Below are positions 21,294 through 33,820 of a DNA stretch of 64,000 bases, piece after piece. The stretch is taken from positions 248,001-312,000 of the forward strand of contig PGZJ01000002.1 of NCBI GenBank assembly GCA_002840055.1, in the 5' to 3' direction. Every line of letters starts with the position of its first letter. Position 1 is the first letter of the stretch. The DNA is from Gammaproteobacteria bacterium HGW-Gammaproteobacteria-11. GTDB taxonomy: Bacteria; Pseudomonadota; Gammaproteobacteria; Pseudomonadales; Pseudomonadaceae. The notes under the pieces are model-generated. The model had not been told where the DNA came from. It saw only the letters and a list, made by a program, of their open reading frames with translations, and searched no databases. Both the position numbers and the translations under genes were made by a program.

Positions 21294-22058
21294 TCAGACA
21301 CGATTGATGGATACACCGCCATCTACCAACATCGCAGAACCAGTTGTGAAACTGGAGGCATCGGATGCTAAGTACAATGCGGATTGAGCAATTTCATCGG
21401 GTGTCGCCATACGCTTGAGCGCATGCAGGTTATGCACAAACGCCAATGCTTCTGGCGTACTGGCAAATTCACGTCCTGCTGGCGTATCAGTACCACCGGG
21501 CAGAAGGGCATTGACGCGGATATTCTGAGGCCCATGCTCTGACGCCAGCACTTGAGTCAAGCCAATAAGACCCGCCTTACTGGCGGCGTAGGCAGCCATG
21601 CCAGGCATACCAGCGCTGTAACCCACGAAGGTAGAGGTAAAAATTAACGAACCGCCCTTTCGGGCAGCCATGGCGGGCAGTTGGTACTTTGCGCCCAGAA
21701 ATGCACTGGTCAAGTTGGTCGCAATAACCTGATCCCAGTCCGTTTGCGACATCTCAGGGACAGGGCCCATAGCACCCAGGATAGCCGCATTGTTGAAAGC
21801 GATATCCAATCCGCCAAAGTGACTTACCGCCTTGTCTACCAATGCTTTGGCAAACGCCTCATCCCCAACGTCACCGGCTAGTGCCAGTGCCTGACCGCCT
21901 TCCGCATTGATTGAGTCCACAAGGTTATCAAGCTCCTTTTGTCGCCTTGCCGCCACCACGACGGCAGCACCTTCTTTCGCAAAAAGCTTCGCGGTTGCGT
22001 AGCCAATACCGGTGCTGGCGCCAGTAACGATAGCAACCTTGTTAGCAAGTATGGACAT
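21294..22058 (-). CDS. Short-chain dehydrogenase/reductase (SDR)
   Basis: A 254-residue classical SDR. Coenzyme motif TGASTGIGYATA (residues 12-23), NNAAILG strand motif, catalytic Ser near STFVGYSAGMPG, YAASKAGLIG (Tyr, Lys) and C-terminal MLVDGGVSINRV. Cofactor probably NAD(H). Start ATG at 22058 (a TTG at 22061 is less likely). Ribosome-binding site AGGGGG about 9 bases upstream. Next on the strand comes the Ada-like gene, an operon with possible alkylation-stress relation. Confidence 0.85.
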   Translation of the reverse strand: MSILANKVAIVTGASTGIGYATAKLFAKEGAAVVVAARRQKELDNLVDSINAEGGQALALAGDVGDEAFAKALVDKAVSHFGGLDIAFNNAAILGAMGPVPEMSQTDWDQVIATNLTSAFLGAKYQLPAMAARKGGSLIFTSTFVGYSAGMPGMAAYAASKAGLIGLTQVLASEHGPQNIRVNALLPGGTDTPAGREFASTPEALAFVHNLHALKRMATPDEIAQSALYLASDASSFTTGSAMLVDGGVSINRV

Positions 22059-22170
22059 CAATCATTCCCCCTGGCTCTGCTCACTATAAAAGGGCACATG
22101 CCCGAACAGGGCCTATCTTAGGAGGACAAACGACTACTGCCGACCCGAATCTTGCTGTACTTCAATTGTG

Positions 22171-22266
22171 CAATGACGCCCAAATATGGGGCCGGAATGT
22201 AGGTTCGAAGCGCCGGAACGGCGGTCCCCGCAGAGCTCACGCGGCGACATGATTTGCTTGTTAAAC
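22171..22266. other. Degenerate attC-like site
   Basis: Minus-strand GTTTAAC (22260-22266) is a good R'' core. At the other end CAATGAC (22171-22177) replaces the expected core, followed by GCCC as in other sites of the array; CATGATTTGC partly pairs with GCCCAAATATG. It lies 3' to the 187-aa cassette-like gene at 22371 and may be the decayed last site of the array. Confidence 0.35.
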
Positions 22267-22281
22267 ATGGCCAGGATAACT

Positions 22282-22326
22282 GGGGTCGGATGAAATTTAA
22301 GAAACGTTCATCTGACCCCGTTTTTT
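22282..22326 (+). repeat. Palindromic element with TTCATCTGA core and T-tract, copy 3
   Basis: Hairpin GGGGTC-GGATGAA facing TTCATCTGACCCC (22282-22319), followed by GTTTTTT. It resembles a rho-independent terminator on the plus strand, but no plus-strand gene reads into it. It is related to the elements at 19781-19812 and 20350-20402. With the attC-like site it is all I see in the 22059-22370 gap. Confidence 0.55.
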
Positions 22327-22370
22327 ATCGTGATAGCAACCAAACACTTCAGCTACCAAAAAACCAAGCC

Positions 22371-22934
22371 TCAATGGACACATGGTTGCCCTTTGCAAGC
22401 TGTTGCAGACAACCATTGTATTGAGTTGAATTCCAGTGGATTGTGACCCTGGTCCCGGTTATATACGATCGAACCACCTTCGTCCAAACGCCAACCAATC
22501 AGGCGAATACCGGAAGCCTGTTGATCTTGAGTTCTATGAGGCGAACCAAGAATGGATTCGAGGTATTGCATCGCATTGCCATGCGACCACCAGGGGATTG
22601 CAGATGCGACACGAACCAAGCGTTCATCGCTGAACCAGTAGTTCATGTACATGGTAGGGACGCCGTTAAGACTCTTAAGGTAGACCGTACAACGTAGAGA
22701 CACCCCCGGATGACCTGTTGTTTCTCGATCGCATTGCACATTGTTTCCGGGAAACTGTTCCTTGACTGTGTCGGGCGCCCAGGTTTCTGAAAATCGCTTC
22801 CAGTCCATTTGAGCCGCTGGACGATCTTCTAGCAGATAATGGCGGTATTCTCGTACCTCCCGTTGCTGGGTATTTACCAGCCAAACAAAAGGCAGGAGGG
22901 CGAATAGAACAAATAAAAGAATACCCCGACGCAT
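22371..22934 (-). CDS. Hypothetical membrane-anchored protein
   Basis: A 187-residue protein with an N-terminal membrane anchor or signal (GILLFVLFALLPFVWLVN) and a periplasmic domain with four cysteines (CDRETTGHPGVSLRC; ACKGQPC). I do not recognise it. It lies just past the truncated attC at 23001-23055 and is followed by a degenerate attC-like site, so it may be a former cassette. ATG at 22934. Confidence 0.5.
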   Translation of the reverse strand: MRRGILLFVLFALLPFVWLVNTQQREVREYRHYLLEDRPAAQMDWKRFSETWAPDTVKEQFPGNNVQCDRETTGHPGVSLRCTVYLKSLNGVPTMYMNYWFSDERLVRVASAIPWWSHGNAMQYLESILGSPHRTQDQQASGIRLIGWRLDEGGSIVYNRDQGHNPLEFNSIQWLSATACKGQPCVH

Positions 22935-23000
22935 GTTACGATCCCTGTGTTTTTATTGGTAAAAAACGAATTATGGCTGTCCACTAAAGTGGTGCAAGAT

Positions 23001-23055
23001 CAGCGGGCTTTAGCCCGTCCAAGAGAGCGAAGCGAGCGGTTTGAACAAGTTATTT
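23001..23055 (-). other. Truncated attC site (end of cassette array)
   Basis: Read on the minus strand: the 5' part (AAATAAC at 23049-23055, then CAAACCGCTCGCTTCGCTC and GGGCTAAAGCCCG) matches the attC at 26108-26183. The other half (the R'-side) is replaced by CACTAAAGTGG-type sequence at about 22984-22995. The stop of the upstream cassette gene (23050-23052) lies within the core, as is common for cassettes. Confidence 0.55.
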
Positions 23056-23709
23056 TGCTAGTCGAGTGTACTTCTTTTTTAGGTTTTTGTTTTTCCCGAA
23101 CTGGTGTCTTTGGGCGGCCCATTGCCTTGCGATTTCTTGAATGCCCTCTGTGGCAACACTAAATGCCTGTATCAGCTCTAACTTGTGCTTTATCTCAATT
23201 TCTGACTCGTCAGATCCTATGTAAAAACCTCTCTCATTGGATTCTGGGATTGCTTCAGATTTATTTAATAGATGATGAAAGCTGACATCTGAAAGATGGA
23301 TATACCCAGAGCAAAGCGAGTAGACATGTGTTAGCCAAGGATTTTCCTTGGCCAAGAGATTAACCAGATAACCATCGGAAAGTCTTTTTCCGGTTTTGTC
23401 TTTTATTTTAGATAATTTTTCTCCGCAAATTACTTTGTTCGCGGAATCGTGTGCATCGTGAGTTATTGTAATTCCATATAGGCGAAGAATTGAATCAAGC
23501 TGAAGGCGGAGTAGTGCGACACCGCAGGAGTAACCACCGTTTTTTACTATAAGTGTGAATCCATGTGACACCTGCAATGCCCTATTACAGCTTGCAAGAA
23601 AAAGAGCGTCTGCTGGAAAAAGCTGACCTTCGCATGAATCAAAGAGCTCCTTTCCAATGGTGTCGAACTCATCGCTTAGCTTTTTTAGTGCGCTCAACTG
23701 TTCTTCCAT
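23050..23709 (-). CDS. Cassette protein, possibly HEPN-like helical protein
   Basis: A 219-residue, mostly helical protein. LFLASCNRALQVSHGFTLIV and the stretch VALLRLQLDSILRLYGI resemble helices of DUF5677/HEPN-like proteins, and SLCSGYIHLSDVSFHH follows, but I cannot assign a family. The start is ATG 23709 (MEEQLSALKKL); GTTATGC of the upstream attC overlaps an alternative ATG at 23724. The stop codon lies inside the following attC core. Confidence 0.55.
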   Translation of the reverse strand: MEEQLSALKKLSDEFDTIGKELFDSCEGQLFPADALFLASCNRALQVSHGFTLIVKNGGYSCGVALLRLQLDSILRLYGITITHDAHDSANKVICGEKLSKIKDKTGKRLSDGYLVNLLAKENPWLTHVYSLCSGYIHLSDVSFHHLLNKSEAIPESNERGFYIGSDESEIEIKHKLELIQAFSVATEGIQEIARQWAAQRHQFGKNKNLKKKYTRLAK

Positions 23710-23720
23710 GTTGCACCTAT

Positions 23721-23792
23721 GCATAACGCCCGCATTTGCGGCTGTCTTAGAGCGCAGCGGAAAACCAGTCCCGGTACACGCGCTTGTTAAAG
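23721..23792 (-). other. attC site (cassette of TIR-like pair)
   Basis: Minus strand: R'' CTTTAAC at 23786-23792, R' GTTATGC at 23721-23727, 72 bp apart. The 5' arm reads AAGCGCGTGTACCGGGAC and the 3' arm GCCGCAAATGCGGGC. It is a different subtype from the 76-bp sites. Confidence 0.6.
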
Positions 23793-23866
23793 GTTGTCAT
23801 CACGGAACCTGACAAATTGCATTATTAGGCCGCCGCAGCGGCCCTTCGATCGTAGCGGATCGCGTA

Positions 23867-24766
23867 TCAAACGCGCATAACCTTGTTCCAATCTATACTA
23901 TGGCCAGCTGCTTCGAGTTCGCGTGCAAGTGCCTGCTTCCAGCCACCGTTGCTGTCCATCGTCTCCCAGACGACACCCGCGAAATCACTTGGAATTTCCA
24001 AGTTACCGCGCTTTAGGGCACATACTTTGTCTCGGCCCAACCGACCTATGAAGTAGCCCAGCTCCAACAATACATTTTGCCGAGCCCGTGGCTCGGGATT
24101 ACCTCCCTTTGCGCAGCCCTCATCATCCGGTGTGAGAAGGACTACCGCAAATCCAACATCGCTGTTTGCAACGACTTTTTCGATAACTGTTCGTCCTTGA
24201 TTGGCCTGCTCATGGAGAATGATGGCCTCCAAACCAATGCGTTCCAGAAAGCGAGCCACTGTTTCGCGCGCACCATCGTCATGGCCATGAACAATAAATA
24301 CCTTGCTTGAAAATGGTGGCCTTAACACAGTTTCGGTACTCCCCTTCGATTGGATATAGTTCTTGTAATCACGAACAAAGGGAATGATGAGTTGTCCGGT
24401 AAGCGAATGGATGCCAGCAATGACTTTCTTCCCGGAATAGAAAAAATGATGACCGAAGTTTGTAGCGTAACCAGGATTGTTGGCCAACTTCTCGATCAAA
24501 AGCAACGTTAACCCCATAGTCTTTTTGGGGTCATCTGGCCAAGCAAGCTGGGCACTGCCAACCATGCTACCGCCAGTTTTTTCACTTTCCGCAATGAAAG
24601 CATCGAGATCAACGTCTTTTGTCAGCTCTTCGTTGTAAGGCTCAAGGTCGGAATGTCGTAACAATTGGGCCAGCTTCTTCATTGGACGTTCGTACGTCTG
24701 TAGCTGCGAGTTCTGCAAATCTAGAACGGCGTTGTTGATTTCTCCGAAAATGTCTTGAGCCATCAT
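23867..24766 (-). CDS. TIR-like nucleotide-binding protein (CAP12/Pycsar-type TIR family)
   Basis: A 299-residue protein. The N-terminal 165 residues form a family-specific domain (KLAQLLRHSDLEPYNEEL, GSMVGSAQLAWPDDPKKTMG, FGHHFFYSGKKVI). From about 170 the TIR-like fold starts with SKVFIVHGHDDGARETVA, then LHEQANQGRTVIEKVVANSD, VVLLTPDDEG and PRARQNVLLELGYFIGRLGR, where the Glu in LLELG is the expected NADase catalytic residue. Related proteins (pfam TIR-like, COG4271) include cyclic-nucleotide-triggered antiphage NADases; no cyclase is present here. It overlaps the 95-aa gene upstream by four bases (ATGA) and shares its cassette. Defence role is inference. Confidence 0.8.
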   Translation of the reverse strand: MMAQDIFGEINNAVLDLQNSQLQTYERPMKKLAQLLRHSDLEPYNEELTKDVDLDAFIAESEKTGGSMVGSAQLAWPDDPKKTMGLTLLLIEKLANNPGYATNFGHHFFYSGKKVIAGIHSLTGQLIIPFVRDYKNYIQSKGSTETVLRPPFSSKVFIVHGHDDGARETVARFLERIGLEAIILHEQANQGRTVIEKVVANSDVGFAVVLLTPDDEGCAKGGNPEPRARQNVLLELGYFIGRLGRDKVCALKRGNLEIPSDFAGVVWETMDSNGGWKQALARELEAAGHSIDWNKVMRV

Positions 24767-25050
24767 TCATCCTCGCTAGACTGCAATCGAGCCTCAGCGG
24801 CTTTCTGGAGAATGTTTTCTCTATAGCTTTCCTTCATTTGATCGGCGAACGACCCAACAATAGGGTTGTTAGCGTACGGCTCAATTCGGCTATCAATTAT
24901 TCGAATAACTGACTGAATTGCAGCTTCAATGCTGGCAGGATCGTTAGGATCAAAGTTAACGACGCACAACTCGCCATCTAATTCATTCAACGCTTGCTGT
25001 GCTTGTTTTAGTTCTTTCTGTAGCTTGTCGAGTCCAGTTATTTTAACCAT
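24763..25050 (-). CDS. Small coiled-coil protein coupled to TIR-like gene
   Basis: A 95-residue charged protein. Residues 5-25 (GLDKLQKELKQAQQALNELD) are coiled coil; the middle (VVNFDPNDPASIEAAIQSVIR) and the C-terminus (MKESYRENILQKAAEARLQ) are helical. No family recognised. Its ATG at 25050 follows an AGGGGG ribosome-binding site, and its stop overlaps the ATG of the TIR-like gene, so the two are co-translated in one cassette. It may be a regulator, sensor or antidote. Confidence 0.6.
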   Translation of the reverse strand: MVKITGLDKLQKELKQAQQALNELDGELCVVNFDPNDPASIEAAIQSVIRIIDSRIEPYANNPIVGSFADQMKESYRENILQKAAEARLQSSEDE

Positions 25051-25126
25051 GACACCCCCTTATTAATGACCTACCAACGACTCTTTGCCCCTCAACCAAC
25101 TAAACCGAAGCCACAATGCCCTTCCG

Positions 25127-25222
25127 CTTTAACGCCGCCAACACGGGCCGCAATGGAGCTGAGAAGCAGCGGAATGCAGGTCCAGCCAGCTTCGCTGGCG
25201 ACCGTGCTTGGCTTTGTTATGC
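25127..25222 (-). other. attC site, 96-bp type
   Basis: Minus strand: GCATAAC (25216-25222) at the 5' end, GTTAAAG (25127-25133) at the 3' end, with inner arms GCCAAGCACGG and CCGTGTTGGC that pair imperfectly and a central hairpin TCGCCAGCGAAGCTGGC. The size and arms differ from the common 76-bp sites, so this cassette came from another attC family. Confidence 0.65.
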
Positions 25223-25226
25223 ACTT

Positions 25227-26084
25227 TCATGCGCTAACTTCTTCTCTGCGGACCCAGCTATGCTTAATATAAACCTCATCTATGAGGTCTAGGCCAGTTT
25301 GCTCATTAAACAGGCTACAGTACGGATTTCGAAATGAAATGTAGAATCCATTTTCGTCTTCAGCTTCCCTAGTGAAGCAAGGATGTAGCGGGCTTACCAA
25401 ATTTGCGCAGGCCTGACTAATTGGGCCTTCAAACTCTTCTTCAATAAACTTCATAACTTCAATTAATTCATTTTTCTCTGGCGTGAGGCTTTCGAAAAAG
25501 TCAGCCATATTTGAATCTATTTCAGCTTTCCACTGAACTTTTACGTAATCTCGGGTTGTGGGATGGATTTTATAGAGGTCTGTATCGCCATCAATATTTG
25601 TGGTGCGAATAATATATTTGTTGGTTTTGAGAGAGCCTACATACTCTAAACGCCAATCCATTCTTTGTTCTTTATCTATAAGGAGCCTAAGAGCATCCCT
25701 TTTCCAATAAGGGAAATGTTCAAATGCCTTTTTGAACCCCTCTAGAAATTCTTTATTTGCTTGATCTACTGATCGTTGTTGAGCTTTCTCTAATTCGTCT
25801 TTTTTCTGCTTCTCTTTCTTCTCTTTGGCAGAAGTTTCAATTTTCTCCCATATTGAAGAAACTATAATATAGATAGCCTGACCAACAATAGATCCGATAC
25901 CAAGCCCAATTAGCAATACTATAAGGCCATGATGTTCTTTTGGTGCACCCAAAGAAGATAGGGTGTTATCGAGATACTTCCATGAAAGCACAAGGAAAAT
26001 ACCGACTGATATGTATTTGACTGAAGCCTTTGGCGAGGTCAAAGCGGACAATAGCTTGATCACTGTGCCTGCAGTTTCACTCAT
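25227..26084 (-). CDS. Two-helix membrane protein with cytosolic domain, SieB-like architecture
   Basis: A 285-residue protein. Two predicted membrane helices lie at about residues 22-42 (YISVGIFLVLSWKYLD) and 52-77 (LIVLLIGLGIGSIVGQAIYI). A Lys/Glu-rich coiled coil follows (EKKEKQKKDELEKAQQRS), then a soluble region (KAFEHFPYWKRDALRLLIDK, TREAEDENGFYISFRN). The arrangement resembles superinfection-exclusion protein SieB, but the similarity is not firm. ATG at 26084. It lies between attC sites at 25127 and 26108. Confidence 0.55.
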   Translation of the reverse strand: MSETAGTVIKLLSALTSPKASVKYISVGIFLVLSWKYLDNTLSSLGAPKEHHGLIVLLIGLGIGSIVGQAIYIIVSSIWEKIETSAKEKKEKQKKDELEKAQQRSVDQANKEFLEGFKKAFEHFPYWKRDALRLLIDKEQRMDWRLEYVGSLKTNKYIIRTTNIDGDTDLYKIHPTTRDYVKVQWKAEIDSNMADFFESLTPEKNELIEVMKFIEEEFEGPISQACANLVSPLHPCFTREAEDENGFYISFRNPYCSLFNEQTGLDLIDEVYIKHSWVRREEVSA

Positions 26085-26107
26085 ATATTGATTCTCCGGT
26101 ACTTAGT

Positions 26108-26183
26108 GCATAACTTATGGTTAAGGGGCGGGCTTTAGCCCGTTCCAGTGAGCGAAGCGAACGGTTTGAACCACTTGTTAGGT
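26108..26183 (-). other. attC site, 76-bp Pseudomonas-like type
   Basis: Minus strand: ACCTAAC (26177-26183) R'', then AAGTGGTTCAAACCG, stem halves TCGCTTCGCTCACTGGAAC and GGGCTAAAGCCCGCC, and GTTATGC (26108-26114) R'. The length is 76 bp and the layout matches the sites at 27954 and 28796. Confidence 0.8.
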
Positions 26184-26205
26184 TTCAATTGCACAATTTC
26201 GTTCT

Positions 26206-26996
26206 TTAGAACTCGATTACAGGCTGCTTCATACTCATGTCTGATGGGAAAACTGGATGAAGCGCTTGAGGATTCTTTTTAAGTGCTAGTTCAACGAACT
26301 CTTTGTCTTCTTCAAATGTGTGGATGATTTTGAACTTTTTGATACCAAGCCTCTGTGACCTTATTGTGTCGTGAAGAGAATTTGCCCTGAAACTAATGGT
26401 TCTCATGAATAAGGAGTACAGCTCGCAATCGAATTTGCTGTGTATCTGGTTGATTTTTTCAATTACTACAGCTGAGTTTTCTATGCTGGGCACTATTTTT
26501 AGAGCTTCGATGATTTCATCTTTCTTTGCTTTTGCTGAAAGCACTACCTGACTTTCGCTGCATAGTTCTTTTAGGTCGCTAACTTTCAATTTTTGCAATA
26601 GTATTTCTATGCTACTGGAGTCGAAATTTGGCCTTACTGGGAATCTAGATGGAAACTTTCCAATTTCTAAAAATACTCTTTTCCATTCTTCGTATTCACA
26701 CCATTGCCATTCTTTATCTTTGAAGTGCTCTTCCCATACGCTGGAATAGTAACCTGACATATTGAGGAAGCCGCCATCGCTGCCTTTTATTACGCGAAGT
26801 ATTTTTTCTCTTGCGCCAGCTTCGAGCCCCTTAATGTCCTTGATCATTGAATCAAAGATTTTGTCATAGCACTCATACAGCTCTTTGTCTGGTGTTATTG
26901 TTAGAATTGGAGAGCTTGGCTCGCTTACTTTTATTGTGCTACTAGCAACTCTGTTTTCCTTGCTTTTATTCGGCCGTAGAAAATCGAAAAACCCAT
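26206..26996 (-). pseudogene. Cassette gene with SAP-like motif, one-base frameshift near its start
   Basis: The downstream frame begins with an ATG at 26847 (MIKDIKGLEAGAREKI), but the same frame runs open to 27051 without a start codon. AGGAG at 27003-27007 is 6 bases before an ATG at 26996, which opens in another frame as MGFSIFYGRIK and stops early. Adding one T to the run of five at 26987-26991 would give MGFFDFLRPNKSKENR and 263 residues in one frame; the span is 791 bases, one short of a multiple of three. The region around residue 150 (LKVSDLKELCSESQ, AKAKKDEIIEALKIV) resembles a SAP DNA-binding motif. Function unknown. Either a real mutation or a homopolymer error. Confidence 0.7.
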
Positions 26997-27060
26997 AATA
27001 AACTCCTATTTTATTGCTCTTAGTGGACTTTAAGGCCGGTTTATTCTTGAGCTACTTGAA

Positions 27061-27135
27061 ACCTAACGCCTCAATAACCGGCGCAGCTTTGCTGCGTCCA
27101 GCGCCGAAGGCGCGAAGTTGATTGACTTGTTATGT
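27061..27135 (-). other. attC site
   Basis: Minus strand: ACATAAC (27129-27135) R'', then AAGTCAATCAACTTCGCGCC, central stem TTCGGCGCTGGACGCAGC, and GTTAGGT (27061-27067) R'. The length is 75 bp. Confidence 0.75.
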
Positions 27136-27137
27136 GA

Positions 27138-27932
27138 CTACTCACTAATTATCTCCTTGAAAACTGTTACCCTTTTCAGGCGTTCATCATGAACATCAAT
27201 AAAATCCGTCTCTAAGCGGCCTTCGAGCATTTGCCTAACATAATAAGGTGGCTCACTACGTAAATATTCGTCTTGCTCGCTTGTACGAAAATACTCTTGT
27301 TCATCCAATATGCCAATTCCACCTAGCCAATTCAAAGCTCTATCAGGTAATTCTCTGCCACCGAAGCCCTTGCAACAGAATATACAATGCATAGGTTTCA
27401 ACGACCCAATAACAGAACTGAGGCGATTTTCATTTTTGGATTGAAGGTTCTTTACAACACTTGGAGCAAGAATCGAGGTGCCGTAATGTCTGACAGTGGG
27501 TTTGTGAGTTTGGCATTCCCATGCAGTCTTATATCTTGAAGGTTCCCAGTTGCTGTACATGCAATAGAGTGGAATTAATCCATTCTTCTTTGCATCACTG
27601 ATTAGAAGGTCGACTTGAAAGCCATGTTTATTTTTATGGTGTAAATGCTCATATTTTTCAGTCTTTAGATTCAAGACTTTTGCCTGAACTCTCATGCCCA
27701 ACCATTTACCACTGGGCCCTGTAAACCACCATTCCCAGTCTGAGCCATTCAAAGACTCCGCATGTCTTGTGAAGGTATCGATAGCTATTTTACCTTCACC
27801 CCATTTCTTTATATTAAGAACGATAAAATCAGTAAGCGACTCTTCTCCAACTTGGAATTCGAGAGTTCTAGCTTCTCTGAGCTTACTCCATGCCCAGGCA
27901 GAGTTTTTTATGGCTATCTCATCTAATTCCAT
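27138..27932 (-). CDS. DUF6615-like protein (cassette encoded)
   Basis: About 264 residues. EESLTDFIVLNIKKW, then IDTFTRHAESLNGSDWEWWF, GMRVQAKVLNLKTE and GFQVDLLISDAKKNGLIPLY match the DUF6615 pattern. The Trp-rich ExxxxSDWEWW and the VQAK strand suggest a PD-(D/E)xK-like nuclease-type fold, but this is not shown. C-terminal cysteines CIFCCKGFGG may bind metal. The ATG at 27932 is preferred (AGAGGA about 12 bases upstream); a TTG at 27941 is possible. It is one cassette between attC 27061 and 27954. Confidence 0.65.
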   Translation of the reverse strand: MELDEIAIKNSAWAWSKLREARTLEFQVGEESLTDFIVLNIKKWGEGKIAIDTFTRHAESLNGSDWEWWFTGPSGKWLGMRVQAKVLNLKTEKYEHLHHKNKHGFQVDLLISDAKKNGLIPLYCMYSNWEPSRYKTAWECQTHKPTVRHYGTSILAPSVVKNLQSKNENRLSSVIGSLKPMHCIFCCKGFGGRELPDRALNWLGGIGILDEQEYFRTSEQDEYLRSEPPYYVRQMLEGRLETDFIDVHDERLKRVTVFKEIISE

Positions 27933-27953
27933 TGGGTACAAATTTCCTCTGTC

Positions 27954-28030
27954 ATATAACGATTAAGCTAAGGGGCGGGCTTTAGCCCGTCCCAGTGAGC
28001 GAAGCGAACGATTTGAGCGCCTTGTTGTGC
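27954..28030 (-). other. attC site, 77-bp Pseudomonas-like type
   Basis: Minus strand: GCACAAC (28024-28030) R'', then AAGGCGCTCAAATCG, stem halves TCGCTTCGCTCACTGGGAC and GGGCTAAAGCCCGCC, and GTTATAT (27954-27960) R'. Almost the same inner sequence as the site at 26108-26183. Confidence 0.8.
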
Positions 28031-28055
28031 GCTTAAGGTCGCCAAAAATCTTCTT

Positions 28056-28793
28056 TCATTTTGGTTGTTTATTTCTTTTAGGGTCGGTAAGGAATCCAAT
28101 ATCAATTCCAGAAATTAAAATGAAATGATGAAGAAATTCTTCACAAGCTGACACTGCCCACGCTGCACACTCTTTAGTTAGAATGTCTTTAGGAAAGGTT
28201 GCTGAGCGAGTTAGCTTCAATGGTCCGCGTAGTTTCCGTACGATTTCTTGCTGGGAAGAATAGTCGTAATCCTCTGATGCCATAAACGTTGTTACACGCC
28301 CAGGGGTTGGATGCACTAGCATGTTGCGTAAAACTCTAACTAACTCAGCGTTTTGATAGATTTTGTTGCCGCTATCTATTTCAGGCTTACCCATTATACG
28401 AAGCAACATGTTGAATCTGCCAAGCGTTGTTTGATTTTTCTTGGGAATTAGCTCGCCTTGAGTTATAGAATAAACAATATTTCTCTCTGATTCATTAAGA
28501 GGGCTGTCTTTGGTTAAAGCATGAATATGAAATATTTCGTTCAATGAAGCTTCAAGGAATGAGTAAGAGAGGATGATGGCACCGTTAATGAATGCTTTAA
28601 TTTGCCAATATGTTTCCGTCGTTTCTTCAAGGTTCTTTGCAGAGTTAACCATGACTCTGGCAGAGTTACGTAGTTCGAATGCAAATGTGTACTCCTCCTC
28701 AGTATATGTGAGTTTTGCCGATCCATCCGATTGGCGCACAATATGAGAAACTCCACCCCTGCGGGAAACTGGAACTTTCCGGTCTTTAGTCAT
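28056..28793 (-). CDS. HEPN-like protein with RNxxxH motif (cassette encoded)
   Basis: About 245 residues, helical. The segment INGAIILSYSFLEASLNEIF is followed, about 70 residues later, by LVRVLRNMLVHPTPGR; RNMLVH fits the RX4-6H active-site pattern of HEPN ribonucleases, often toxins or defence effectors. The start is ATG 28793, three codons after a GTG at 28799 that lies in the attC. There is no antitoxin-like gene in the same cassette. Family assignment is inferred from the motif and helix pattern only. Confidence 0.6.
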   Translation of the reverse strand: MTKDRKVPVSRRGGVSHIVRQSDGSAKLTYTEEEYTFAFELRNSARVMVNSAKNLEETTETYWQIKAFINGAIILSYSFLEASLNEIFHIHALTKDSPLNESERNIVYSITQGELIPKKNQTTLGRFNMLLRIMGKPEIDSGNKIYQNAELVRVLRNMLVHPTPGRVTTFMASEDYDYSSQQEIVRKLRGPLKLTRSATFPKDILTKECAAWAVSACEEFLHHFILISGIDIGFLTDPKRNKQPK

Positions 28794-28795
28794 AG

Positions 28796-28871
28796 GCACA
28801 ACGTTTAAGCTAAGGGGCCGGCTTCGCCGGTCCCAGCGAGTGAAACGAGCGATTTTAGCGCATTGTTAGGT
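28796..28871 (-). other. attC site, 76-bp Pseudomonas-like type
   Basis: Minus strand: ACCTAAC (28865-28871) R'', then AATGCGCTAAAATCG, stem halves TCACTCGCTGGGACCGGCG and GCCGGCCCCTTAGCTTAAAC, and GTTGTGC (28796-28802) R'. The stop of the cassette upstream (28866-28868) is inside R''. Confidence 0.82.
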
Positions 28872-29212
28872 GTATTTTTCTTCATGCTTGGCAATGTATT
28901 GTTCCAGATTTTCATCGACTTCGCTTTGCGAGTCTTTTTGGTCTAACCGCAAGCGAATGACATATTCAGATGATTCTTGATTGAATACCAATGTTAAGCC
29001 TGCATCGTAAGGGAAAAAGTTATAGCCGAGAAACTCAATGACAGTGCCGAAATTGTGAATTTTGTAGTCATAGTCTTGAAATTGTTTGGAGATAATATAT
29101 TTTTTCCTTTTGTAAGGTGCTGATATGTTGGTTTGAAGTGTTCTAAATGCTCAGAAGAGGCAATATTTTTAGTGCTATTTTTTGAAAATAGGCTGAGAAA
29201 CTTACTGAGCAT
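28866..29212 (-). pseudogene. First cassette gene, frameshifted by one base
   Basis: ATG 29212 opens MLSKFLSLFSKNSTKN. About 33 codons on, the frame continues as a low-complexity stretch ending at 28994, while a second frame encodes KKYIISKQFQDYDYKIHN, FGTVIEFLGYNFFPYDAG and ends KHEEKYT with a TAA inside the attC core, as expected for a cassette gene. The full span is 347 bases, one less than a multiple of three, and adding a base to the A-run near 29099-29107 would join the frames into about 115 residues. No family recognised. Confidence 0.65.
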
Positions 29213-29220
29213 AACTAAAG

Positions 29221-29400
29221 GCACCTAACATTTGTATAGTGGTCGCACCGACTCATATCTCGGTGATCGTTTTGTCATTTTCAATATCTACCAAAAATCT
29301 TGCCAACCACTTGAAATTAAAACGCTTTCAGCTTGTTCTCTGACTTTTCCAGCTTGTGCAAAACGGTCGTAGCGACTCATATCTCACTTTTCACACAAAT
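29221..29400 (-). other. attI-like site with two direct repeats
   Basis: Minus strand: TATACAAATGTTAGGTGCC (GTTAGGT at 29223-29229) resembles the end of attI sites (AAACAAAGTTAGGC). Upstream, at 29241-29261 and 29365-29385, a 21-bp sequence with GAGATATGAGTCG and CGACC occurs twice with two differences, 124 bases apart; these may be integrase- or regulator-binding sites. Each contains an inverted GTCG-N3-CGAC. Confidence 0.5.
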
Positions 29401-29723
29401 TCTTAACCGTATGATTTAACAAGATAAATAAGCCGATTCGAGCACACACTCCAGATATCGGTCATTACGATCGTTTTTCCCGTTATTCAACGTTCTTTCA
29501 CGCCCTCTGCGAGCCATTTTTGACGGCGCACTTATCTCCAGACACGCTACCGCCCGATCCTGAGCACGGACAAATTGCGAGTAACGTTCAAAATGTAGTT
29601 GCGTGGGCGGCTGGCTGTCCTTGCCTTGTGGGCGGGGGTGGCTGGCAGTCCATTGCGGTTTCAGGTTAATGCAAAGCGCTGGGTGATGTCCAAGTGCTTT
29701 TTGCTGGCCAATGGCCGTGCCAT
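29401..29723. other. Gap between attI-like region and purL terminator
   Basis: This stretch has no gene I can support. Neither strand carries a recognisable integrase (no R..H..R..Y pattern, no remnant seen by eye). Base composition rises from AT-rich to GC-rich near 29500, which may mark the boundary of the integron with the core genome. Confidence 0.4.
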
Positions 29724-29746
29724 AAAAAACCCCGGCAGGGCCGGGG
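29724..29746 (-). terminator. Rho-independent terminator of purL
   Basis: Minus-strand hairpin CCCCGGC (29740-29746 side) and GCCGGGG (29730-29736 side) with a three-base loop, followed by TTTTTT (29724-29729). It lies about 30 bases after the purL stop. Confidence 0.85.
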
Positions 29747-29774
29747 TTTGGGGTGTTGCCTGGCAGTGCGACGG

Positions 29775-32700
29775 TTAACCGACCCAGACCCGGGCATTGC
29801 GGAACATGCGCATCCAGGCGCCGTCTTCGCTCCAGCTGTCCGGGTACCAGGAGTTCTGCACGCTACGGTATACCCGCTCCGGGTGCGGCATCATGATGGT
29901 GACGCGGCCGTCGCGGGTGGTCAGGCCGGTGATGCCACGCGGTGAGCCGTTGGGGTTGGCCGGGTAGCGTTCGGTCATGCGGCCACGGTTGTCGATAAAG
30001 CGCAGGGCTACGCTGCTGCTGGCTTCACAGGCGTCCACGGCGGCGCTGCTGGCGAACTCGGCGTGACCTTCACCGTGGGCGATGGCGATGGGCATGCGTG
30101 AGCCGACCATGCCCGCGAGGAAGATCGAAGGCGAGGCCTGCACTTCAACCATGGCAACGCGGGCTTCAAACTGCTCCGACTTGTTGCGTACAAAGCGCGG
30201 CCAGTGCTCGCTGCCGGGGATCAGTTCGTGCAGGTTGGAGAGCATCTGGCAGCCGTTGCACACGCCCAGGGTAAAGGTATCCGGGCGTGCGAAGAAGGCG
30301 CTGAAGGCATCGCGGGCGGAGGCATTGAACAGGATGGATTTGGCCCAGCCCTCGCCTGCCCCCAGTACGTCACCGTAGGAGAAACCGCCACAGGCAACCA
30401 GTCCACGGAAGTCAGCCAGATCAACCCGGCCACTGAGGATGTCGCTCATGTGTACGTCGATGGCATTGAAACCGGCGCGGGTGAAGGCGGCGGCCATTTC
30501 TACCTGACCGTTGACGCCCTGCTCGCGCAGGATGGCCACACGGGGTCGCAGGCCGCTGTTGATGTGCGGGGCGGCGACGTTGTCGTTCTGGTCAAAGCTG
30601 AGTTGCGCATCCAGGCCGGGGTTGGCGTCGTCGGCCAGGGCTTCAAACTCCTGATCGGCGCACTCGGCGTTATCGCGCAGCCGCTGAATCTGCCAGCTGG
30701 TTTCGCTCCAGGCCTGTTGCCAGGCGCCGCGCGTGCCACTCACAATGCTGTTGCCGTCATAGGCAAATTCCAGCGTCTGCGGCTGCTGCGGCTGACCAAT
30801 CACCGCGCTGCAATCGCCCAGACCGGCGGCGGCCAATTGGCTGAGCACAGCCTCGGTGTCGCTCTGGCGTACCTGAATCACGGCGCCCAGCTCTTCATTG
30901 AAGAGTACGGCGGGCAGCTCGCTGGCGGCATCGGCCAGTACATCCAGATTGATGTTCAGACCGCAGTGCCCGGCAAAGGCCATTTCCGCCAGGGTGGTGA
31001 GCAGACCGCCGTCGGAGCGGTCATGGTAGGCCAGCAGCAGGTCGTCCTGGTTGAGGCCCTGAATCACCGCGAAGAAGGCTTTCAGGTCGTCGGCGTCGTC
31101 CAGATCAGGGGCGGTCTGGCCAATACGGTTGTAGACCTGGGCCAGCGCCGAGCCGCCCAGACGGTTCTGCCCGCGGCCCAGATCGATGAGGATCAGGTCG
31201 GTATCGCCCTGGTCCAGTCGCAGTTGCGGGGTCAGGGTCTTGCGGATGTCCTGTACCGGGGCGAAGCCAGTGATGACCAGCGACAGCGGCGAGGTCACGC
31301 TCTTGTCTTCGCCAGCCTCATTCCAGCGGGTTTTCATGGACATGGAGTCCTTGCCCACCGGGATGGTAATGCCCAGTTCGGGGCAGAGTTCCATGCCCAC
31401 GGCACGCACGGTATCAAACAACCGGGCATCTTCGCCGGGGTGGCCGGCGGCGGCCATCCAGTTGGCGGACAGGCGAATGTCGGAGAGCTTGTCAATCCGC
31501 GCCGCAGCCAGATTGGTGACGGCTTCGGCAACGGCCATACGGCCGGACGCCGGGGCATCCAGCAGGGCCAGCGGCGTACGCTCGCCCATAGCCATGGCTT
31601 CACCGGTGTACACATCAAAGCTGGCGGCGGTCACGGCACAATCGGCTACCGGCACCTGCCAGGGGCCAACCAGCTGGTCGCGGGCTACCAGACCGGTGAT
31701 GCTGCGGTCACCAATGGTGATCAGGAAGTTCTTGCTGGCCACCGAGGGCAGGCGCAGGACGCGCTGCACAGCTTCTTCCAGCTCTACCGCCGTGGCATCG
31801 AAGTCGTCCTGCGGCTCGGCTTCACGGGTAACGCTGCGGTGCATGCGCGGCGGCTTGCCAAGCAGGACCGAGAGCGGCATATCGACCGGCTGGTTATCAA
31901 AGTGCTGGTCGTTGAGTACCAGCAGTTGCTCTTCGGTGGCTTCACCCACTACCGCATAGGGGCAGCGCTCACGTTCACAGATGGCCTTGAAACGCTCGAA
32001 GTCGGCGTTGTCCACGGCCATCACGTAACGTTCCTGGGATTCGTTGGACCAGATTTCCAGCGGGCTCATGCCCGGCTCGTCATTCGGTACATTGCGCAGT
32101 TCAAAGCGCCCGCCGCGACCACCGTCATTGACCAGCTCGGGGAAGGCGTTGGACAGGCCACCGGCGCCGACGTCGTGGATAAAGGCGATCGGGTTCTTGT
32201 CGCCCAGCTGCCAGCAACGGTCGATGACCTCCTGACAGCGGCGCTCCATCTCCGGATTTTCGCGCTGCACCGAGGCAAAATCCAGGTCTTCGGCGCTGCT
32301 GCCGGTATCCATCGAGGAGGCCGCACCGCCACCCAGACCGATCAGCATGGCCGGGCCGCCAAGCACAATCAGCTTGGCACCGACCGGAATGTCGTTCTTT
32401 TCCACGTGCTCGGCACGGATGTTACCCATGCCGCCGGCAATCATGATCGGCTTGTGGTAACCGCGCACTTCCGGCCCGCGCGGAGAGCTGACGGTCTGCT
32501 CGTAGGTACGGAAATAGCCGGTCAGGTTCGGGCGACCGAATTCGTTGTTGAAGGCGGCGCCGCCCAGCGGGCCGTCGATCATGATCTGCAGCGGGGTAAC
32601 GATACGCCCCGGTTTGCCGTTGTCTTCTTCCCAGGGCTGCACAAAGCCCGGAATACGCAGATTGGAGACAGTAAAACCGACCAGACCGGCCTTGGGCTTG

Positions 32701-33671
32701 CCGCCCCGACCCGTGGCACCCTCATCACGGATCTCGCCGCCGGAGCCGGTCGAGGCGCCGGGGAAAGGCGCGATAGCGGTGGGGTGGTTGTGGGTTTCCA
32801 CCTTCATCAGGATATGTACGGGCTCTTCATGGGCGCGGTATTCGGCGCTGCCCGGCTGCGGGAAGAAACGCCCGGCCACCGAGCCTTCAATAACGGCGGC
32901 ATTGTCCTTGTAGGCGGACAGCACCCCTTCACTGCGCATCTGATAGGTGTTCTTGATCATGCCGAACAGGCTTTTTTCTTCCGCCTGACCGTCGATATCC
33001 CAGGTGGCGTTAAAGATCTTGTGCCGGCAATGCTCGGAATTGGCCTGGGCAAACATCATCAGCTCGACGTCGCTGGGGTTGCGCTTGAGCTCGGTAAAGC
33101 TGCTGACCAGATAATCGATCTCGTCGTCGGCCAGGGCCAGACCCAGTTCGTTGTTGGCCTGTGCCAGTGCCTCACGGCCACCGGCAAGAATATCCACCCG
33201 GTTGAAGGGCTTGGGTACGGCGTGGCTGAACAAGCCGGCCGCGGCCTCAAGATCAGCAAGTACCCGTTCGGTCATGCGGTCATGCAACAACGCCGCGACC
33301 TGCTGCTGCTCGGCTGCGGTCAAGTCACCCGCGACGTAGTAGGCCAGGCCGCGCTCAAGCCGCAGCACCGTACTCAGGCCGCAGTTGTGGGCGATATCCG
33401 TGGCCTTGCTGGACCAGGGCGAAATGGTGCCAAAGCGCGGCACCACCAGAAACAGCTGGCCGCTGGCCTCTTCCACCGCAACCGAGGGGCCGTATTTCAA
33501 TAACCGCGCCAGAACCTGTTCGGTGGTGGCGTCCAGCTCTGCGCTCAACTCGGCAAAGTGCATGAACTCGGCATACACACCGGTCACGCCGGGCACCTTG
33601 GCCTGCAGGCGGGCAAGCAGTTTGTGACGGCGGAAGTCGGAAAGGGCTGGAGTGCCACGCAGAATATGCAT
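29775..33671 (-). CDS. purL: Phosphoribosylformylglycinamidine synthase
   Basis: A 1298-residue large-type FGAM synthase. It converts FGAR, glutamine and ATP to FGAM in de novo purine synthesis. N-terminal PurS-like domain ([19 protein letters not shown]), then two AIRS-type halves with nucleotide motifs ([12 protein letters not shown]-like [46 protein letters not shown]), and the C-terminal class I amidotransferase with GVCNGCQML (catalytic Cys) and MPHPERVYR (His, Glu). The ATG at 33671 is preferred over an upstream ATG at 33749 because it gives the normal PurL start. It diverges from mltF. It is an intact core gene just outside the integron array. Confidence 0.95.
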
Positions 33672-33820
33672 GCTGGTTTCGGCCTCGGGATACTGAACAG
33701 GTGGAAAAAGAAGGCGCATAGGATACCCCATGAAGGCCCTTTGAGCCATGCCAGCGGGCGGACAGAAAACGCAATGTTTTGACGCTATTGCCGACCAACG
33801 CTTTTGCCTATACTGGGCTC

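Follow-up and report, generated by a model that had tools for sequence, protein, structure and literature searches.

The DNA analysed here is a stretch of 64,000 nucleotides (hereafter the window), lying within a 414 kb contig of Gammaproteobacteria bacterium HGW-Gammaproteobacteria-11, a member of the genus Halopseudomonas. Its assembly (G000) comprises 3.24 Mb and is 75.9% complete. Next to purL the window carries an integron cassette array with attC sites and an attI site, for which no integron integrase gene (intI) was found and which is preceded by a leader containing an ops element, the sequence that recruits RfaH. On the minus strand, purL is followed by the leader with ops, then by attI and the cassettes. 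Between the attI core at 29229 and a truncated attC at 23003 seven cassettes follow in series, one of them with two genes (Table 1).

The attC sites were searched for with a model (R1) trained on other Halopseudomonas genomes, the genome under study being excluded. After removal of sites outside 58–98 bp, of three loci from the own genome and of near-duplicates, 39 attC were retained, and 32 of these were aligned to give the model. A scan of all 64,000 bases on both strands with filters off returned seven matches, every one on the minus strand, the eighth-best match having an E-value of 1.7. Five are at E 2.3e-4 or better. The other two (27954–28030, E 0.23, and 28796–28871, E 0.31) are each non-significant by themselves under R1; they were accepted because both align lengthwise with the significant attC at 26108–26183 and sit behind a gene like the others. 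Two or more close attC without an integrase define a CALIN (cluster of attC sites lacking integron integrases), and five strong and two weaker sites are present here, so the array is real. An earlier note made from the letters alone had proposed six complete attC and one truncated site. All six were recovered, their sizes of 72, 75, 76, 77 and 96 bp are correct, the resemblance of the sites at 26108, 27954 and 28796 holds along their length, and an alignment confirms the half site. The same note went too far in describing canonical core pairs throughout: the core consensus is RYYYAAC/GTTRRRY, and the R1 alignments show several cores in the window that deviate from it by at least one base. Its limits of 23001..29231 were too narrow, as the array extends to about 22176, where a degraded attC is located. 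Home-made palindrome scans separated attC too poorly from noise and were superseded by R1, and Rfam at gathering scores gave no match in the window. Over the whole assembly R1 gave 23 matches at E ≤ 1, all but one on contigs C1, C54, C62 and C77. Two array pieces, G000:C62:146735-147834 and G000:C54:140800-142406, each extend to the end of a contig; their directions are compatible, and they may be a single array. Relatives of the attC type at 28796–28871 occur on 15 of 72,556 plasmid records (14 Pseudomonas, 1 Enterobacter).

purL is regarded as the integron site of the genus because intI or a remnant of it adjoins the gene, within 2 kb of its end, in 22 of the 34 purL loci fetched from Halopseudomonas relatives; some of the remaining 12 loci end early at contig ends. 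An integron integrase over the cut-off is present in 24 of 37 Halopseudomonas genomes; besides the lineage found at purL there is a second one, about 46–47% identical to it. In the genome under study no integrase reached the cut-off anywhere in the assembly, and two Halopseudomonas IntI protein queries revealed no remnant in 22001–29780 (best E 0.53). Neither the window nor, over the cut-off, the 75.9%-complete assembly shows the intI of a complete integron, as the earlier note had seen for the letters at hand. Because the purL integron site, a conserved attI and the ops leader are all retained, the missing intI is read as a loss, and the array is best read as an eroded chromosomal integron of Halopseudomonas. 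The description as CALIN-like applies insofar as an attC cluster without integrase is concerned, but the array is not free-standing, since it occupies the integron site of the genus with attI and ops leader in place. Three further observations concern intI in relatives. At locus L266 (258–700, genome G035) ops is followed by an eroded intI and then by an attI-like core, which represents a stage of intI loss. Locus L105 (7972–8220) of G014, a one-contig genome without full intI, holds an 83-residue remnant of the second lineage, 95% identical. The sequence CTGTATTTTTATACAG, LexA-box-like by eye, is found upstream of the purL-site intI of G005 (L052, about 2049–2065).

The array begins at the attI-like core that had been recognised next to purL. 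The 59 bases that precede this core recur without a change in another array of this genome, on C62, despite differing surroundings, and an alignment of 11 such sites (two from the own genome, nine from five relatives) shows agreement up to the GTT of the core and divergence thereafter. By this conservation the site is in all likelihood a genuine attI. An intI of the second lineage adjoins two of the 11 sites, those of G013 and G030, and such an intI also accompanies an additional site, in G020 (L085). The attI of the window is of this kind; in the arrays on C1 and C54 of the same genome it is of the kind that goes with the purL lineage. When the intI-less purL site of the window is compared with G006, G013 and G014, the similarity stops at the core, and therefore their first cassettes differ from that of the window. 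This fits either cassette exchange after intI loss or swapping of whole arrays.

Upstream of attI and on the strand of the array, as in RfaH/ops operons, the leader carries the 12-mer GGCGGTAGCGTG, which a passage of PMC5995543 gives as ‘ops12’, the RfaH-recruiting element. Initially GGGCGGTAGCGTGCCTG was interpreted as the boundary of a platform or as an RNA gene present in several copies; a second class of its sites precedes wzc, wzb and glmS genes, which led to the recognition of ops. Three exact copies of the 12-mer are present in the own assembly, each heading an attC array on the right strand (reversed control: 0), and a fourth array head, on C54, has ops with one mismatch. Across the genus 124 exact copies were counted, against 40 for the control. 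Of the 22 purL loci with intI or its remnant, 14 have an ops (≤1 mismatch) that begins 31–43 bp past the end of the IntI match, a closeness that shuffled regions equalled in 4 of 2000 cases. The second IntI lineage shows the same arrangement in three genomes (1 mismatch, 36–44 bp), and so does intI in two genomes of another genus (exact, 25–27 bp). In 28 further loci of the family (L156–L183), each an intI with flanks of up to 1.5 kb and together the top-scoring ones listed from outside the genus, no ops within one mismatch was found.

A broader leader pattern, GGACWGCY followed by 35–65 bases and GGGCGGTAGCGTG, has 33 matches, spread over 23 of the 37 Halopseudomonas genomes; the 361 other Pseudomonadaceae have none, and the reversed control hit 1 of 398 genomes. 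In the own genome the pattern is confined to C62 and C77. Nine of the 33 places were examined last. Six have attC downstream (L258, L259, L260, L261, L264, L265), L266 has the eroded intI before its attI-like core, L262 shows an attI-like core and no attC in 7 kb, and L263 is cut by a contig end. For a count that starts from the arrays, attC clusters (E ≤ 0.01) were counted by hand in 8 of 9 one-contig Halopseudomonas genomes, G029 being excluded. Upstream of 11 of the 24 clusters with at least two attC, ops lies on the same strand with at most one mismatch; this is the case for 10 of 12 clusters with at least four attC and for 1 of 12 smaller ones. The total rises to 13 of 24 if two clusters with two mismatches and leader-like surroundings are included. 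The opposite strand of 15 upstream regions fetched for such clusters contained no ops within one mismatch. At L141 (215–311, G020) a signal recognition particle RNA gene is found directly before an ops-headed array.

The genome encodes RfaH (G000:C17:274312-274770, 165.7 bits at a cut-off of 144.5), as do 29 of 37 Halopseudomonas genomes over that cut-off. The protein aligns with E. coli RfaH (5OND; 5.1e-21) and shares with it K10, R73, E48, I93 and F130; a passage of PMC7593976 ties these residues to DNA binding and autoinhibition. We conclude that ops and RfaH belong together in this genus, because an exact ops is found 113–262 bp behind 18 of the 33 rfaH genes that pass the cut-off (17 genomes), on the same strand, and because the 12-mer also precedes wzc-, wzb- and glmS-like genes (six genes named). 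Among the 22 purL loci, ops within one mismatch is present in 12 of 15 with RfaH (8 exact) and in 3 of 7 without RfaH (1 exact), and among the four genomes without RfaH whose completeness is 99% or more it is present once and never exact; six loci known only from their leader were left out of this tally as biased. The tally is no more than suggestive of a joint loss of ops and RfaH. In other genera with related intI, both ops-bearing genomes have RfaH, and of 11 genomes without ops eight lack RfaH, one is just under the cut-off and two have it.

attC, attI and ops lie here in a fixed order on one strand, the arrangement is conserved in relatives with and without intI, and an rfaH gene is present. 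We consider it probable, as far as sequence can tell, that the locus is an eroded integron in which a leader with ops, attI and cassettes remain and are read as an RfaH-antiterminated operon. According to this model intI, which in relatives lies between ops and attI, would have been lost, leaving the ops leader, attI and cassettes behind. RNA polymerase would start in the leader between purL and attI and pause at ops, where RfaH would load and replace NusG; transcription, now antiterminated, would then continue over about 330 untranslated bases, through attI and along the cassettes with their attC, which would together form one long operon, and the array may be expressed in this way. Where a platform still has intI, this leader is situated past the 3′ end of intI and points antisense through it toward the cassettes, across an untranslated kilobase that would otherwise invite Rho. 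The promoter step is the weakest part of this mechanism. With somewhat less assurance, we favour the view that the larger Halopseudomonas cassette arrays are members of an RfaH regulon, whether or not intI is present. The ops leader would make each of them an antiterminated operon and, being independent of intI, would let genomes keep several integrase-free arrays headed by attI, either filled in trans or frozen, as reserves of foreign genes that can be expressed.

Several observations weigh against RfaH-dependent reading. In the closed genomes 13 of the 24 clusters, mostly small, are without ops within one mismatch, and so is a small cluster of two attC near 47 kb of C77. Within the genus, the intI of G029, G035 and G022:C2 (48–50% identical) are without ops; outside it, G202 and G198 of another genus have RfaH and an intI without ops. 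The purL loci of G001, G008 and G012, with RfaH present and intI broken, have no ops, and three of the seven purL genomes without detected RfaH retain it within one mismatch (G010, and the incomplete G026 and G027). As leaders were chosen for comparison only when they had ops at two mismatches or fewer, the conservation of ops among them is not independent. No exact ops is present in the 300 bp downstream of the genome's own rfaH. Of the DNA-contact residues K10, H20, R23 and R73, stated in a passage of PMC5995543 to be highly conserved in RfaH, the own protein keeps two, H20 and R23 being different; these changes need not spoil ops recognition, because the RfaH of G031, with ops 221 bp behind its gene, differs at the same two positions (seven loci were tried for this comparison and three matched the search pattern). 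The promoter-like part of the leader is weak in the window and was not listed by a consensus scan, which gave two sites in 600 bases against a shuffle mean of 0.7, and the leaders of relatives have plausible hexamers by eye. The site at 29277–29306 that the scan does list lies downstream of ops and could drive the array without it. Finally, the Rfam JUMPstart family (RF01707) scores 14.1 bits (E 4.4) on 29543–29569, below the gathering score of 35, and so lends no support on its own. The two differing RfaH residues and the JUMPstart score have lowered our confidence in both the operon and the regulon interpretation.

A first alternative is an ordinary CALIN, that is, a dead integron with ops as an inherited relic and any expression coming from a promoter near attI, for which the site at 29277–29306 would be a candidate. 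CALINs and their origin through intI loss are documented, in passages of PMC8618304, which describes routes, and of PMC12444791 for Xanthomonas; in Halopseudomonas, too, intI is absent or broken at many purL loci, and the three loci without ops just mentioned all belong to the broken ones. Against this, leader, ops and attI are kept together in many intI-less platforms, four of them in the own genome (one with one mismatch), and most of the nine leader places examined last likewise keep leader and attI without intI. We regard a plain relic as unlikely. The same retention after intI loss, in the window and elsewhere, speaks against a leader that serves intI itself through an antisense transcript repressing the integrase, with ops helping the RNA to reach the intI promoter. 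Although the leader does aim at the 3′ end of intI in intI-bearing platforms, we hold this explanation to be quite improbable. Still harder to credit is that the leader block acts as a hot spot for insertions or forms one end of a mobile unit moving integron platforms, its likeness to ops being due to chance or secondary; several leader-attI platforms per genome and several sequence types of leader would agree with it, but in this genus the same 12-mer is also found ahead of wzc, wzb and glmS genes and directly behind rfaH.

A possibility of another kind, compatible with antitermination of the array, is that the strain does possess an intI that is absent from the assembly and serves the attI sites in trans. 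The incompleteness of the assembly, an attI of the type that lies beside the second IntI lineage in relatives, and the differing first cassettes behind the same intI-less site are in its favour. In the one-contig genome G014, however, the same kind of sites exist, no intI was found at E up to 1e-40 and only the 83-residue remnant of the second lineage was seen. We treat an integrase in trans as conceivable, if not the expected case. The earlier note had seen nothing that would drive the recruitment of cassettes without an integrase; it is best read as ordinary recruitment, by a past IntI or by one elsewhere in the cell.

As to the cargo, the TIR gene and the cassette 3 gene (DUF6615) have firm matches and the cassette 5 protein has a close relative; for the remaining proteins the libraries searched gave no firm match. 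Defence genes had been suspected in the array. This holds for one cassette, in which a TIR gene is paired with a small neighbour; the rest is unsupported, and with the TIR gene alone matching strongly the locus does not show the several recognised defence genes of a defence island. DNA like the TIR pair is present in 7 of 5426 E. coli genomes, in six of the seven over at least 80% of its length, with 73.6% identity in the five matches listed. The 92% identical relative of the cassette 5 protein (L188, 880–1734), found near intI in another genus of the family, is a sign of cassette exchange.

Table 1. Features of the purL-side cassette array, in the direction of reading (positions in the window)
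Feature	Position	Strand	Remarks
purL	29775..33749	-	NCBIfam PRK05297.1, 2209 bits (cut-off 783); neighbour marking the integron site of the genus
Terminator-like hairpin, after purL	29728..29742	-	
Promoter-like part of leader (TTGGAC, 17 bases, ATTAAC)	29665..29693	-	By eye from aligned leaders; second hexamer poor
Conserved leader, GGACAGCC ... GGGCGGTAGCGTG	29543..29620	-	Pattern in 23 of 37 Halopseudomonas genomes
ops element, GGCGGTAGCGTG	29543..29554	- (strand of the array, before attI)	Letters are those of ops12 in PMC5995543
Second promoter-like site, between ops and attI core	29277..29306	-	9 of 12 in consensus scan
attI (type 2), core GTTAGGT at 29223-29229	29226..29284	-	Probable attI; 59/59 identical at G000:C62:146735-146793
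Cassette 1 gene	28875..29213	-	Reading frame split across two frames (frameshift or sequence error)
attC of cassette 1	28796-28871	-	76 bp; R1 E 0.31; aligns with attC 26108-26183
Cassette 2 gene, 247 aa	28056..28799	-	Weak HEPN match only, E 0.065
attC of cassette 2	27954-28030	-	77 bp; R1 E 0.23; aligns with attC 26108-26183
Cassette 3 gene, DUF6615	27138..27941	-	E 5.1e-13
attC of cassette 3	27061-27135	-	75 bp; R1 E 2.7e-12
Cassette 4 gene, 213 aa	26206..26847	-	No firm library match
attC of cassette 4	26108-26183	-	76 bp; R1 E 2.3e-4
Cassette 5 gene, 285 aa	25227..26084	-	92% identical protein near intI in another genus (G291, L188)
attC of cassette 5	25127-25222	-	96 bp; R1 E 2.5e-8
Cassette 6, small gene preceding TIR gene, 95 aa	24763..25050	-	
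Cassette 6, TIR-domain gene	23867..24766	-	CAP12-type TIR; PADLOC PDC-S35
attC of cassette 6	23721-23792	-	72 bp; R1 E 9.4e-8
Cassette 7 gene, 224 aa	23050..23724	-	No firm library match
attC of cassette 7, truncated	about 23003-23055	-	Second half missing; alignment
Gene between truncated and last attC, 187 aa	22371..22934	-	Possible cassette 8
Degraded last (seventh) attC	22176-22261	-	R1 E 1.7e-4; model positions 6-67 only

Integron biology has long asked how cassettes far from the array head are read. If our interpretation is true, ops at the array head answers this in a direct and testable manner, through antitermination by an activator dedicated to foreign genes, and explains how an array head can outlast its own integrase. 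The ops leader is moreover a sequence tag for platforms missed by integrase-only searches. Open-licence literature, judged by titles, abstract starts and passages of one paper, yielded no link between RfaH and integrons, and a search of such papers for Halopseudomonas integrons returned only unrelated work.

Comparison with known systems shows what is shared and what is not. The CALIN at the Xanthomonas ilvD site, as described in part of PMC12444791, resembles the present locus in being an attC array left at an ancestral integron site after intI loss; here, in contrast, attI and a conserved ops leader are retained and several such platforms occur per genome. With Pc-read chromosomal integrons (PMC8876359, PMC11014356) the array shares unidirectional genes read from the attI end, whereas the ops-carrying leader of Halopseudomonas is situated on the opposite side of intI; the term ‘antitermination’ is absent from the text of PMC8876359. 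From the RfaH/ops operons treated in parts of PMC7593976, PMC5995543 and PMC4048246, the last of which discusses RfaH at a capsule locus, the array differs in that the cargo is a set of cassettes, attI lies in the untranslated leader, RfaH dependence is a prediction and JUMPstart scores below threshold. It agrees with them in that the leader of a long operon of foreign genes holds an exact ops and the genome encodes RfaH, and in Halopseudomonas relatives ops often follows rfaH itself. The integrase-less array is hence of a known kind, and the ops leader at the head of integron arrays is new.

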